Assembly (NCBI GenBank): GCA_012839445.1
Contig: DUNI01000012.1
Location: 1-50,330 of the forward strand
From: Bacillota bacterium
Lineage (GTDB): Bacteria; Bacillota; DTU030; DUMP01
DNA length: 50,330 nucleotides
Direction: 5' to 3'
The first letter of the stretch is position 1. Each line of letters starts with the position of its first letter. The position numbers and the translations under genes were made by a program. The notes beneath the pieces are model-generated. The model did no database searches. It saw only the letters and a program-made list of their open reading frames with translations, and was not told the DNA's origin. This document shows positions 3,632 to 46,862 of this stretch, one piece after another.

Positions 3632-4696
3632 CTATACGTTAAAGCGAAAAGCCATGATGTCGCCATCTTGAACGATATAATCTTTACCTTCGAGCCGCAG
3701 TAAGCCCTTTTCTCGCAGCTTAGGCACAGTTCTCTCTTGCACCATGTCCTTATAAGACACCACCTCGGCCCGAATAAAACCTCGTTCAATATCCGAGTGA
3801 ATCTTGCCGGCTGCTTCCCGGGCTGTGGTACCGCGTTTAATCGTCCACGCACGCACCTCATCGGACCCCACCGTAAAGTAAGATATAAGATCCAGGTGAG
3901 CATAAGCTGCCTGAGCCAGGCGGGCCACCCCGGATTTTTTTAATCCTAAATCCTCTAGAAACAAGCCTCGCTCTTCTTCCGGTAGCTCGCTGATTTCTTC
4001 CTCTAGCGGTGCACAGACAGTGAGCAAAGGCATGTGGTGCCGGTAGGCATACTCTTCTAGCTCCGCCTGTCCCGGCGCCTCTTTTGTCCGCAAACCTTCT
4101 TCAGAAGTGTTTAGCACCGCTAACATGGGTTTGTCTGTATATAGGCCGTAATTATTCAAGGCCAAACGCTGCTGGGCAGTATACTCCTGACCTATAACCG
4201 TTTGTTCATTTTCCAACGCCTGCAGCGCCTTTTCCAATGCCTCTTGTTCTCCGGGAATCTCCTTACCTGCTTTTTTATTTTTGCTCAGGCGCTCTAACCG
4301 TCGTTCTACCACATTTAAGTCCGTTATAATAAGTTCGGTTAAAACATCCTGTAAATCAGCCGCCGGTTGCGGCTGGTCACAAACACCCAAGGCATCATTG
4401 GTAAAGCCACGGGTAATAATCACTAACGCGTCAGCATCTTGCATGGGACCGGCAAATTCTGCTGCTCCACCTTGTCCTAGACCAGGAATATCTATAATAT
4501 CTATCCGTGCTTGGGTAGTCTTTTGCGGTTTGTAAAGCCCACTTAAAAAGTCAATACGCTCATCAGGAACCTTAGCTACGCCTGTATGACTGTCCCTTTC
4601 ACCGGCGTAAGTTGCCGTAGCTACACCGGCACCGGTGAGAAGATTGAAAAACGTCGTCTTGCCTGCCAACGGCAATCCTAATAAACCAATTTTCAT
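3632..4696 (-). CDS. YchF-like GTP/ATP-binding protein with C-terminal TGS/DUF933 domain
   Basis: GLPLAGKTTFFNLLTG P-loop, DIPGLGQGG, NTSEEG, C-terminal RAEVVSYKDM...YIVQDGDIMAFRFNV. ATG at 4696 preferred (cctcct RBS upstream) over the longer ORF. Confidence 0.88.
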   Translation of the reverse strand: MKIGLLGLPLAGKTTFFNLLTGAGVATATYAGERDSHTGVAKVPDERIDFLSGLYKPQKTTQARIDIIDIPGLGQGGAAEFAGPMQDADALVIITRGFTNDALGVCDQPQPAADLQDVLTELIITDLNVVERRLERLSKNKKAGKEIPGEQEALEKALQALENEQTVIGQEYTAQQRLALNNYGLYTDKPMLAVLNTSEEGLRTKEAPGQAELEEYAYRHHMPLLTVCAPLEEEISELPEEERGLFLEDLGLKKSGVARLAQAAYAHLDLISYFTVGSDEVRAWTIKRGTTAREAAGKIHSDIERGFIRAEVVSYKDMVQERTVPKLREKGLLRLEGKDYIVQDGDIMAFRFNV

Positions 4697-4921
4697 AATG
4701 CTGTCCTTATCCTCCTCGGGGTTATATCTGAACAAATTGCAAAAGTAATTGCTTAGACCAAGTTTCTGCATTTACCCCTTTCCAATAACATTATACTATA
4801 AACCCTGCTAACTCGAAACCTTGACCTGTGCATTCAGAAAGTATAAGCTCAAAATAGGGGATCATCCAAGAGCAATAATTGGAGCTACCGACTATCACCA
4901 TAATCTATAAAGAAAGGAGCA

Positions 4922-5194
4922 TTGTACATGCGCATCTATGCCTACCCGCCGTTTGACACTCTCTTGGGTAAGGCTGAAATAGAGCTAAATCAAGAAAACC
5001 TATCTCTTTGGGAGCTGCTGCAAATATTAGCCCAGAATTACCCTGCCTTTAAACACGAGCTGCCGGATAAGGCCACCGACGAAGGTCTTCGGGCCCGTAT
5101 GCTACCTATCGGCGAAGGACACATTTATTCCGTCACTGATACCATTCCTGCCGACGCCATCTTAAAGATTTTTCCGCCTCTCACCGGCGGGTAA
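4922..5194 (+). CDS. MoaD/ThiS-like small sulfur-carrier (ubiquitin-fold) protein
   Basis: 90 aa or less, MRIYAYPPFDTLLGKAEIEL..., C-terminal ...FPPLTGG diglycine; RBS aaaggag. Start may be ATG 4928. Confidence 0.75.
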   Translation: MYMRIYAYPPFDTLLGKAEIELNQENLSLWELLQILAQNYPAFKHELPDKATDEGLRARMLPIGEGHIYSVTDTIPADAILKIFPPLTGG

Positions 5195-5408: not shown

Positions 5409-5555
5409 TTGAATAGAAGACTAGAAGCCCTTAAACGAGAACGCGAACAGCTTCTCGACGAGTGGGCTAGTGATAGAGACGATAAAGATACCCGCCTAAA
5501 ACTGCTAGTTAGACTTATGGATCTCGAAGAAGAGATCAACGAAAACATCGCTTAA
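5409..5555 (+). CDS. Small highly charged protein, 48 aa
   Basis: TTG start after GGAGGT RBS: MNRRLEALKREREQLLDEWASDRDDKDTRLKLLVRLMDLEEEINENIA, then stop; own promoter and terminator. Below the ORF track size cutoff. Confidence 0.65.
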   Translation: MNRRLEALKREREQLLDEWASDRDDKDTRLKLLVRLMDLEEEINENIA

Positions 5556-5570
5556 CCATTTAAACGTCAA

Positions 5571-5609
5571 AGGGGCCAGGTGTTAATCAAACTAACACCT
5601 GGCCCCTTT
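5571..5609 (+). terminator. Hairpin terminator of small ORF
   Basis: Perfect 15-bp stem aggggccaggtgtta/taacacctggcccct followed by ttta. Confidence 0.75.
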
Positions 5610-5817
5610 ACTATTAAGTGTGGATTTTAAATAGCATCCTGGAAGGCTGTTTTATTTCTTACTCATTTTCGGCTACCAGCAATGATACTTCCTCTTATAA
5701 GAAGGCTGTTTTATCGGCATCGGCTGGCCGGGCACACCATGCAGCAGGCCCGCACTAGTTATAAGTGCGGGCCTGGCAAAATAGCTTCCGGCAACGACCT
5801 ACTCTCCCAGGGGATAG

Positions 5818-5891
5818 ACACGGCCGTTAAGCCCTCCAGCGCCGATGGTACTTGGGGCTATCCCCTGGGAGAGTAGGTCGTTGCCGGAAGC
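5818..5891 (+). rRNA. 5S rRNA, 3' part only (partial or chimeric)
   Basis: acacggccgttaagccctccagcgccgatggtacttggggctatcccctgggagagtaggtcgttgccggaagc matches the conserved 5S 3' half; the expected 5' half is replaced by an inverted copy of the 3' end. Confidence 0.8.
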
Positions 5892-5900
5892 TATTTTGCC

Positions 5901-5930
5901 AGGCCCGCACTTATAACTAGTGCGGGCCTG
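5901..5930 (+). terminator. Hairpin downstream of 5S 3' end
   Basis: aggcccgcacttataactagtgcgggcct: 10-11-bp stem; inverted copy present in the left arm. Confidence 0.55.
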
Positions 5931-6025
5931 CTGCAATTAGAGAAGAGTTGGGGAAAACACATAACCCTTAATTGGAAATAAATTAGCCTACTGCTACTTT
6001 TGAATAGCAGTAGGCTAACGTGTTA

Positions 6026-7351
6026 TTACAGAATTAGACTGGATGCTATAGTAAAATATATGGTTAAGGCTGCAGCGTCGACGATGGTGGTGATGAGTGG
6101 GCTGGCCATAATAGCCGGATCGACGTTAAATCGCTTGGCTATCATAGGTAACATACCGCCTACCACCTTGGCCAGAAGCACGGTAAAAAATAGGCTGATA
6201 CACACAGTCACTGCTATTGGTAAAGAGACGCCTTGAAGATACAATCGCAATAAGTTCGTGCCAGCTAACGCTAACCCTACCACTATGCCTACTAACATCT
6301 CTTTGACTATAATTTTTGGTAGGTCATCAGATTCTATGTCTCCTAGGGCAATTCCACGAATCACCAATGTGGACGACTGGGAACCGGCATTTCCTCCGGT
6401 GTCCATCAGCATAGGAATAAAAGCGGCCAACAGGACTGAAGATTGCAGAACGTCTTCAAATCTCTGAACAATATTGGCAGTGAATGTAGCCGAGATCATT
6501 AATATTAACAACCAACCTACCCGGTGTTTGGCCAGTGTTAGCACACTGGTTTTTAGGTATTTATCTTCGACCGGGGCAATACCGGCCATTATTTGAAAGT
6601 CTTCGGTAGCTTCCTCTTCGATAATATCAAGAATGTCATCGACGGTGATTATTCCTACCAGACGATTTTCATTATCTACGACTGGCATGGACATCAGATC
6701 GTACTTAATAAATTTAGCTGCCACATCTTCTTGATCATCTAGAGTGTATACATAAGTGATATTTGTTTCCATTATGTTTCCTACTAAGTCATCTTCTTCA
6801 CTTAGTATGATTCTTCGTATAGTCACTATCCCTTCAAGTTTACGTTCATTATCAATAACGTAACAGGTATCGATTGTTTCTTTATCTAGTCCGGTCTTTT
6901 TAATGCGCTTTAAAGCATCCTTAACAGTCATTTCTTTTTTGAGATCTACAAACTCAATAGTCATTAAGCTACCGGCGGAGTTCTCCGGGTAGTTTAGAAA
7001 CTGGTTCAAAAGACGGCGGGTATTCTCATCAGCATTCTTTAACACTTTTTTAACAAAATTAGCAGGCATCTCTTCCAGGAAATCGATGGTATCGTCGAAG
7101 CGTAGCTCGTCGAGGATGGAACGGATTTCTCTGTCAGTAATATTCACAACCACATATTTTTGTTGTTCAGGTGACATATATGAAAAGACGCTAGCGGCGC
7201 TGTCCTTAGATAGCAATCTAAACAGCATTAGAGATTTTTCCAGTGACAAGTCTTCCAAAAAATGGGCGATGTCTACGGGGTTCATTTCTAGTAGTCGGGC
7301 TCTTGCTTGCCCGAACAAATTGTGCTCGACTAAATCTATGACTCGTTGCAT
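6026..7351 (-). CDS. mgtE: Magnesium transporter MgtE
   Basis: N-terminal MgtE domain, CBS pair (SMPVVDNENRLVGIITVDDILDIIEEE), TM region MLMDTGGNAGSQSSTLVIRGIALG; ATG 7351 with aaaggagg RBS preferred. Confidence 0.95.
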   Translation of the reverse strand: MQRVIDLVEHNLFGQARARLLEMNPVDIAHFLEDLSLEKSLMLFRLLSKDSAASVFSYMSPEQQKYVVVNITDREIRSILDELRFDDTIDFLEEMPANFVKKVLKNADENTRRLLNQFLNYPENSAGSLMTIEFVDLKKEMTVKDALKRIKKTGLDKETIDTCYVIDNERKLEGIVTIRRIILSEEDDLVGNIMETNITYVYTLDDQEDVAAKFIKYDLMSMPVVDNENRLVGIITVDDILDIIEEEATEDFQIMAGIAPVEDKYLKTSVLTLAKHRVGWLLILMISATFTANIVQRFEDVLQSSVLLAAFIPMLMDTGGNAGSQSSTLVIRGIALGDIESDDLPKIIVKEMLVGIVVGLALAGTNLLRLYLQGVSLPIAVTVCISLFFTVLLAKVVGGMLPMIAKRFNVDPAIMASPLITTIVDAAALTIYFTIASSLIL

Positions 7352-7506
7352 ATAGAAAGCCTCCTTTGCTGTATTAGTTTGAGATTTATTACCGCTGCGC
7401 ATTCCATTATTATTTCGAGAAGTTCTAATAGCCATCCCTATCGTTGACCCTAGCTTTGAGAAAGTGTTATAGTTGCGTTGACAGAGTTTAGAAGGGGAGG
7501 ACGTTA

Positions 7507-8229
7507 ATGGATACAGCGTTACTGGCAGATAAGCTTATCAAATGGATTAGCAATCAAGTAGTGGCAGCCGGTGGAAAAGGAGTGGTTTTTGGGTTAAGCG
7601 GAGGTCTGGATTCGGCGGTGGTAGCCGGCTTGGCTAAAAGGGCATTTCCGAAAACATCGCTCGGTGTAATCATGCCTTGCTATAGCCATCCTCAAGATGC
7701 GGCTCATGCCCGGTTGGTGGCACAAAAGGTCTCTTTATCTGTATATGAAGTGGTTCTAGATAAAGCATATGATGTCCTTCTTGATCTGGTATCTAGGGTG
7801 GATCAGAGTAAACCTAAACAACTGGCCGCTGCTAACGTAAAGTCAAGATTGCGTATGATTACCCTATATTATTTAGCAGCTCAACATGATTACTTAGTAG
7901 TGGGAAGTAGCAACAAGAGTGAACTGACTGTAGGGTATTTTACCAAGCATGGGGATGTGGGAGATATTTTACCGCTTGGTAACCTGGTTAAGAAGCAAGT
8001 AAAAGAATTAGCGCGTTACTTGGATATACCGGAAGAAGTTATTAACAAGCCACCGTCTGCTGGTTTGTGGGTTGGGCAAACAGATGAAGCCGAGATGGGA
8101 TTAAGTTATGATGAATTGGATTGTTTCATACTTTCCGGGCAAGCATCGCCGGAGATAGGCCGCCGCATTTTAGGCTTGAAGCAAAAAAGCGAGCATAAGC
8201 GCCGACTGGCGCCACATCCAGATTTCTAG
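7507..8229 (+). CDS. nadE: NH3-dependent NAD+ synthetase
   Basis: FGLSGGLDSAVVAGLA PP-loop, VVGSSNKSELTVGYFTKHGDVGDILPLGNL. Confidence 0.95.
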   Translation: MDTALLADKLIKWISNQVVAAGGKGVVFGLSGGLDSAVVAGLAKRAFPKTSLGVIMPCYSHPQDAAHARLVAQKVSLSVYEVVLDKAYDVLLDLVSRVDQSKPKQLAAANVKSRLRMITLYYLAAQHDYLVVGSSNKSELTVGYFTKHGDVGDILPLGNLVKKQVKELARYLDIPEEVINKPPSAGLWVGQTDEAEMGLSYDELDCFILSGQASPEIGRRILGLKQKSEHKRRLAPHPDF

Positions 8230-8424
8230 CAAGGACAACCTAGTTGTTTCTGTTAGTCGGTTACTGGATGACTATCGACAAGGCATGCACGCAGCTATAC
8301 GTCTTTAACTCTCCCGCTTTAATAATGGAGTGGTTCGTGGTAGAATAAAAAAGTAAGGGATTTGTTCTGTTATTTAACAATGCGTGGATTCCCGGCTACG
8401 CAGGCTTAAGCGGGGTGAGAAGTG

Positions 8425-9180
8425 ATGGCGGGACATTCTAAGTGGTCGAACATTAAGCGTAAGAAAGCCAAGACTGATGCGGTGCGGAGTCGCCTATTTA
8501 CTCGTCTTGGCCGGGAGATAATGGTGGCGGTACGAGAAGGTGGATCTGATCCCGAGACTAACTTTAGATTGAATATGGTTATAGACAAGGCACGTAATGC
8601 CAACATGCCAAACGATAATATTATACGTGCTATTCAACGCGGTAGTGGTACTCTGGAAGGTTCAAATCTGGAGGAAGTTGTGTACGAAGGCTACGGTCCG
8701 GGAGGCGTGGCTGTTATGTTGGAACTTCTTACAGATAATCGCAACCGTACAGCTTCTGAGATTCGTCACATTTTTTCAAGACACGGGGGGAACTTAGGCG
8801 AAGGTGGATGTGTGGCCTGGATGTTTTCACAAAAAGGAAGTCTACTTATAGACCGGTCTGGGTTAGAAAAAAGCATAGATGAAGTGATGATGGATGCGTT
8901 GGATGCAGGAGCTGAGGATGTACAAGAAGATGGTGAAATGATTGAGATTCTTACCGCACCAGCGGATTTCGCTGATGTGGAGGAGGCGCTGGCAAAAAAG
9001 GGATATCAATTTGACGAAGCTCAAATAGCCCGTATTCCCCAAAACACGGTGAAGCTAGATCGGGATGATGCTGAGCTTACACTTAAGCTCATGGACGAAT
9101 TGGAGGAACATGATGATGTCCAAGATGTTTACTCCAATTTTGACATCCCAGATGATATTTTGGCTGAACTAGAATCATAA
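8425..9180 (+). CDS. yebC: YebC/PmpR family protein
   Basis: MAGHSKWSNIKRKKAKTDAVRSRLFTRLGREI..., YEGYGPGGVAVMLELLTDNRNRTASEIRHIFSRHGGNLGE. Confidence 0.97.
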   Translation: MAGHSKWSNIKRKKAKTDAVRSRLFTRLGREIMVAVREGGSDPETNFRLNMVIDKARNANMPNDNIIRAIQRGSGTLEGSNLEEVVYEGYGPGGVAVMLELLTDNRNRTASEIRHIFSRHGGNLGEGGCVAWMFSQKGSLLIDRSGLEKSIDEVMMDALDAGAEDVQEDGEMIEILTAPADFADVEEALAKKGYQFDEAQIARIPQNTVKLDRDDAELTLKLMDELEEHDDVQDVYSNFDIPDDILAELES

Positions 9181-37895: not shown

Positions 37896-38090
37896 AACCA
37901 AAGAGATCCCTGCTGTGTTCGTGAAGAGTCGGCTTGTTTTGAGCCAACACCTTTGAAGAGGGAGCTACGACTCTGATAATTACGTACACGCCCCTTTTAG
38001 GGGACGTACAACATTATCAGGCGGGCACCCACCTGCTTGAGAGAGCAGCTTCAAAAACGGTCGACCCACGGCATGGTGGGGTATTTTTTT
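37896..38090 (+). ncRNA. ssrS: 6S RNA
   Basis: tccctgctgtgttcgtgaagagtcggcttgttttgagccaacacctttgaagagggag resembles Firmicute 6S RNA; promoter upstream, terminator acccacggcatggtggggtattttttt; aspS/tcdA(yrvM) location as for B. subtilis 6S-1 (bsrA). Confidence 0.85.
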
Positions 38091-46626: not shown

Positions 46627-46862
46627 CAAAGAGGAAACAGCGAGGAAGGAAAAAGTACCTTTGGTCTCTCTCTCAGCGAGGGAACTCTAGGGTGGAAAGT
46701 TCCTGGGAAGTCCAAGGGGAAGGCCGTTCCTGAGCTGGGCGTGAAGAGCGCTTCCGGAGTGCACCGTTATCGCACCTGTGCATTAGCACCTTCTGAGGCT
46801 ATATAATAGCAAATCAGGGTGGTACCACGAGTGTATCCCTCGTCCCTGCGACGGGGGTTTAT
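46627..46862 (+). promoter_or_regulatory. T-box leader upstream of alaS
   Basis: AATCAGGGTGGTACCACGAG motif; AAAGTACC; TTCCTGAGCTGG; terminator ccctcgtccctgcgacgggggtttatt. Specifier possibly GCC (aagGCCgttcctgagc). Confidence 0.9.

Follow-up and report, generated by a model that had tools for sequence, protein, structure and literature searches.

Does the perfect palindrome that lies between a ychF-like gene and mgtE on this contig, built from the 3′ part of a 5S rRNA gene and its terminator, represent a new genetic element, or was it created during assembly? The window, 50,330 nt in length, is the entire contig C100 of an assembly of 2.04 Mb (254 contigs, 92% complete). By sequence comparison, positions 5740-5817 and 5858-5935 form an exact inverted repeat, with two arms of 78 nt that are 100% complementary and are separated by a 40-nt spacer. 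The preliminary description had reported this repeat, and its exact arms are confirmed; a palindrome of this length is far above chance expectation. The locus is composed as follows:

5740-5817, minus strand: left arm, consisting of a 5S 3′ end (5817 to ~5786), a terminator hairpin (5775-5745) and CTGCA; exact reverse complement of 5858-5935
5817-5818: inner joint, GGGGATAG followed directly by ACACGG; very probably a false join within two 5S copies, with neither true continuation kept and zero shared bases
5818-5889, plus strand: 3′ part of a 5S gene, 5′ part absent; identified with the Rfam 5S model RF00001 and by alignment with relatives' intact 5S genes
5900-5930, plus strand: terminator-like hairpin behind the right 5S, with a 12-bp stem and a 7-nt loop

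On the plus strand, the loop and right arm, from 5818 onward, contain 5S sequence from the conserved ACACGGCCGTTAAGCCC to the 3′ end, followed by the terminator hairpin. On the minus strand, starting at 5817, an identical 5S 3′ end leads into an identical hairpin. The 5′ part of the gene is absent from both sides of the joint, and because of this absence the match to RF00001 over 5787-5889 scores 34.6 bits, below the Rfam cut-off of 38 bits. The outermost 5 nt of each arm (CTGCA) sit outside the terminator hairpin, and beyond them the left and right flanks differ completely and at once. Equivalent hairpins were found behind 5S in five relatives (G001, G002, G003, G004 and G007), while the GTDB contig collection, from which the window's own genome is possibly absent, contained no exact match to the terminator hairpin. 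The predicted RNA fold of the palindrome is one long hairpin (-183 kcal/mol, z -25.9). Such a fold arises because the stretch is palindromic; it is a consequence of the palindrome and no sign of function.

We examined the remainder of the genome for ribosomal RNA. The absence of 16S and 23S genes near the locus, remarked on earlier, extends to the whole genome: neither yielded a match anywhere in the 254 contigs, no second 5S was detected in them with the Rfam 5S model, and the 50,330-nt window contains no further rRNA match. Two other RNAs were identified in the window, a 6S (SsrS) RNA at 37904-38086 (85.4 bits vs. a cut-off of 46.4) and a T-box leader at 46634-46850 (96.9 bits vs. a cut-off of 93). 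The fragmentation of the assembly and its loss of rRNA, together with two relatives that are apparently metagenome-assembled, suggest that it was made from a metagenome. A 5S search of the window's genome and 40 relatives gave matches in 31 of the 41 genomes. Of the 14 fragmented relatives for which a best 5S locus was available, 13 carry it within 350 bp of a contig end. Contigs normally stop near 5S, and one that runs through it is the exception.

The comparison of flanking gene order that the preliminary description had proposed proved informative, and it requires the genes on either side of the palindrome:

3632-4771, minus strand: ychF-like GTPase (Pfam YchF-GTPase_C), left flank
4922-5194, plus strand: 90-aa ORF, left flank; conserved in G002 and G003 (56-61% identity), no Pfam match
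5409-5555, plus strand: 48-aa ORF, left flank; conserved in G004, G001, G002 and G003 (72-89% identity), no Pfam match
6026-7435, minus strand: mgtE (Pfam MgtE), right flank
7507-8229, plus strand: nadE (Pfam NAD_synthase), right flank
8422-9180, plus strand: yebC (Pfam YebC), right flank

In G004, the two flanks lie on separate contigs, each behind its own 5S. Contig C13 starts just upstream of a complete 5S and continues with a terminator, mgtE, nadE and yebC, which corresponds to the right side of the window; contig C179 starts at the equivalent point with another complete 5S and continues with a terminator, the 48-aa ORF, ychF and lytS, which is the left side reversed. G002 is similar: one contig (C119) carries a 23S end, a complete 5S, a terminator and mgtE, and another (C6) breaks off within a terminator identical in sequence, beside the 48-aa ORF, ychF and lytS. 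Contig C77 of G001 breaks off inside 5S, which is followed by the terminator, the 48-aa ORF and lytS; by our reading of the sequence, mgtE of G001 is not adjacent to 5S and adjoins ftsZ. The order within the left arm and its flank, 5S, terminator, 48-aa ORF and ychF, is thus that of G004 C179, and its first three elements recur in G001 C77. The genes nadE and yebC also stand behind 5S in G007 (C31) and in G003. Taken together, the arrangements in G004, G002 and G001 argue that each side of the joint is, as judged from gene order, a separate 3′ neighbor of an rrn operon: the left arm would belong to the operon upstream of ychF/lytS, and the right 5S part to the one upstream of mgtE/nadE.

G003, which consists of a single contig, allows the distance between these operons to be measured. 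Its 5S matches lie on the minus strand throughout, at 126, 488 and 2,012 kb. The 48-aa ORF (481.6 kb), the 90-aa ORF and ychF (469.8 kb) are located downstream of the 488-kb 5S, with other DNA inserted, and nadE and yebC are downstream of the 2,012-kb 5S. These two loci are on the same strand, 1.52 Mb apart in one direction and, if the contig is taken as a circle, 1.36 Mb apart in the other; the sides that meet in the window are not neighbors in G003.

Several smaller features were observed in the left flank. The 48-aa ORF sits behind an rrn operon in all four relatives in which it is conserved. Downstream of it in the window, at 5569-5609, is a perfect 17-bp hairpin (AAAGGGGCCAGGTGTTA, 7-nt loop); it was considered as a possible dispersed repeat, and an exact 17-mer search of the genome returned a single site. 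Between this hairpin and the left arm, the 14-nt sequence GAAGGCTGTTTTAT is present twice in direct orientation, at 5642-5655 and 5701-5714, in a stretch for which inspection by eye revealed no counterpart in the intergenic sequence of G004 or G001.

These observations lead us to conclude that the palindrome is, with high probability, an assembly artefact, a head-to-head misjoin of the 3′ ends of two rrn operons, and that the palindromic 5S is almost certainly not a new genetic element. The basis for this conclusion is the sequence of the locus, the gene order of relatives and the absence of other rRNA from the genome. The organism would carry two or more rrn operons that share an identical 78-nt 3′ end (the 3′ part of 5S, the terminator and CTGCA). 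The rRNA repeat itself would have failed to assemble into the genome, leaving two contig ends inside 5S, with ychF/lytS beyond one and mgtE/nadE/yebC beyond the other. Joined head to head, these ends would produce a perfect palindrome with a 40-nt loop.

The limits of the palindrome can be considered separately. The two rrn copies of G004 remain similar across the hairpin and CTGCTG, with divergence setting in further out; since the window's arms likewise end just outside the hairpin, the outer limits are the natural limits of the rrn repeat. The inner limit falls within the 5S gene. Relatives carry CATCTCGA before ACACGG, and the true continuation of the arm after GGGGATAG is CCCC. We looked for microhomology at this joint and found no shared bases. 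The joint is blunt and is therefore not a plain overlap join. We infer that it was made by an assembler step or a chimeric read, either of which would suffice.

GC skew also changes at the joint, from -0.13 to the left of the palindrome to +0.15 to the right, as if segments of opposite replication direction had been joined. On its own, this change of sign fits a false joint, a real inversion or an origin alike. An origin-like site is relevant to one alternative, in which two rrn operons are truly neighboring and divergent and the assembler dropped the rRNA genes and anything between them, so that the flanks are neighbors at the distance of at least two rrn operons. The orientation of the flanks fits this arrangement, as does the skew, and the ychF-side operon of G003 is 30 kb from dnaA. 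The nadE-side operon, however, is 1,387 kb from dnaA, measured in the same direction, and has the same orientation, and in the window's genome dnaA is on a different contig (C145), so a divergent pair across the origin was rejected when tested with this gene. The distance in G003 argues against a neighboring pair, although the order in the window's own genus or species could differ. We regard truly neighboring operons as unlikely, and the 5S-to-5S joint would be false even so. The preliminary description had favored a misjoin of two oppositely oriented operons at their shared 5S ends; the misjoin finds support in the gene order of four relatives, whereas the operons need not be a neighboring divergent pair. 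Given the separation of at least 1.36 Mb between co-oriented loci in G003, the sequence that belongs between the two parts of the contig may extend well beyond rRNA genes.

A second alternative is that the chromosome was truly inverted between breakpoints lying in two 5S genes, which would leave a palindromic 5S remnant while other, intact rrn operons supply 5S. An inversion would yield exactly such a joint and the same skew flip, its blunt joint could be the result of end joining, and G003 has at least three 5S loci. It would, however, disable two 5S genes, and the full-strength skew on both sides implies that it is either very recent or located at an origin. The assembly contains neither the reciprocal joint nor any other rRNA, and none of the 40 relatives in the 5S search shows a head-to-head 5S arrangement. 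An exact pattern search of 398 genomes of the phylum, including this one, in which diverged copies would be missed, gave no second case of an inverted pair of 5S 3′ ends in the 397 others. This lack of recurrence also leaves the earlier suggestion of a genuine palindromic 5S pseudogene without support. We consider an inversion highly improbable; if it were true, a living population would contain a remnant that can be transcribed into a perfect hairpin of 78 bp.

Perfect inverted repeats with a short loop are the usual form of snap-back molecules, and the palindrome matches that form. Yet a simple snap-back chimera, which had also been proposed and in which one strand folded back and copied itself during amplification or library making, is scarcely credible here, because a fold-back copy would continue into its own flank in reverse complement and the arms instead lead to two different flanks, each with its own rrn operon in relatives. 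At most, a chimeric molecule or read could have supplied the inner 5S-to-5S joint of the misjoin.

For users of the assembly, a misjoin at this site means that gene order across 5740-5935 is not usable and that the contig should be split there. Pipelines that call a 5S gene or a hairpin RNA at these positions would be misled, and the palindrome should not be searched for a function. When a perfect inverted repeat within 5S coincides with a GC-skew flip, the pair offers a cheap flag for misjoins of this kind.

Related errors are known. Metagenome bins lack most rRNA genes, and repeats in metagenome assemblies are collapsed and left out of the bins (PMC7605220). The genome studied here has likewise lost its other 5S, 23S and 16S genes; the difference is that a contig usually just stops at the operon, whereas here two ends became joined. 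GC-skew flips have been used to detect misassemblies, one of which spanned rRNA operons (Chen et al. 2020, PMC7111523). That case, as it is cited there, is a Citrobacter koseri genome whose assembly across its rRNA operons was wrong (Olm et al. 2017, cited in PMC7111523). As far as that citation describes it, the C. koseri error and the present one have in common a false join at a repeated rRNA region that is exposed by an inversion of GC skew. On the same account, long repeats mediated the C. koseri join, in the finished genome of an isolate, whereas in the window two truncated 5S copies appear fused head to head in a draft genome from which the rRNA itself has been lost.
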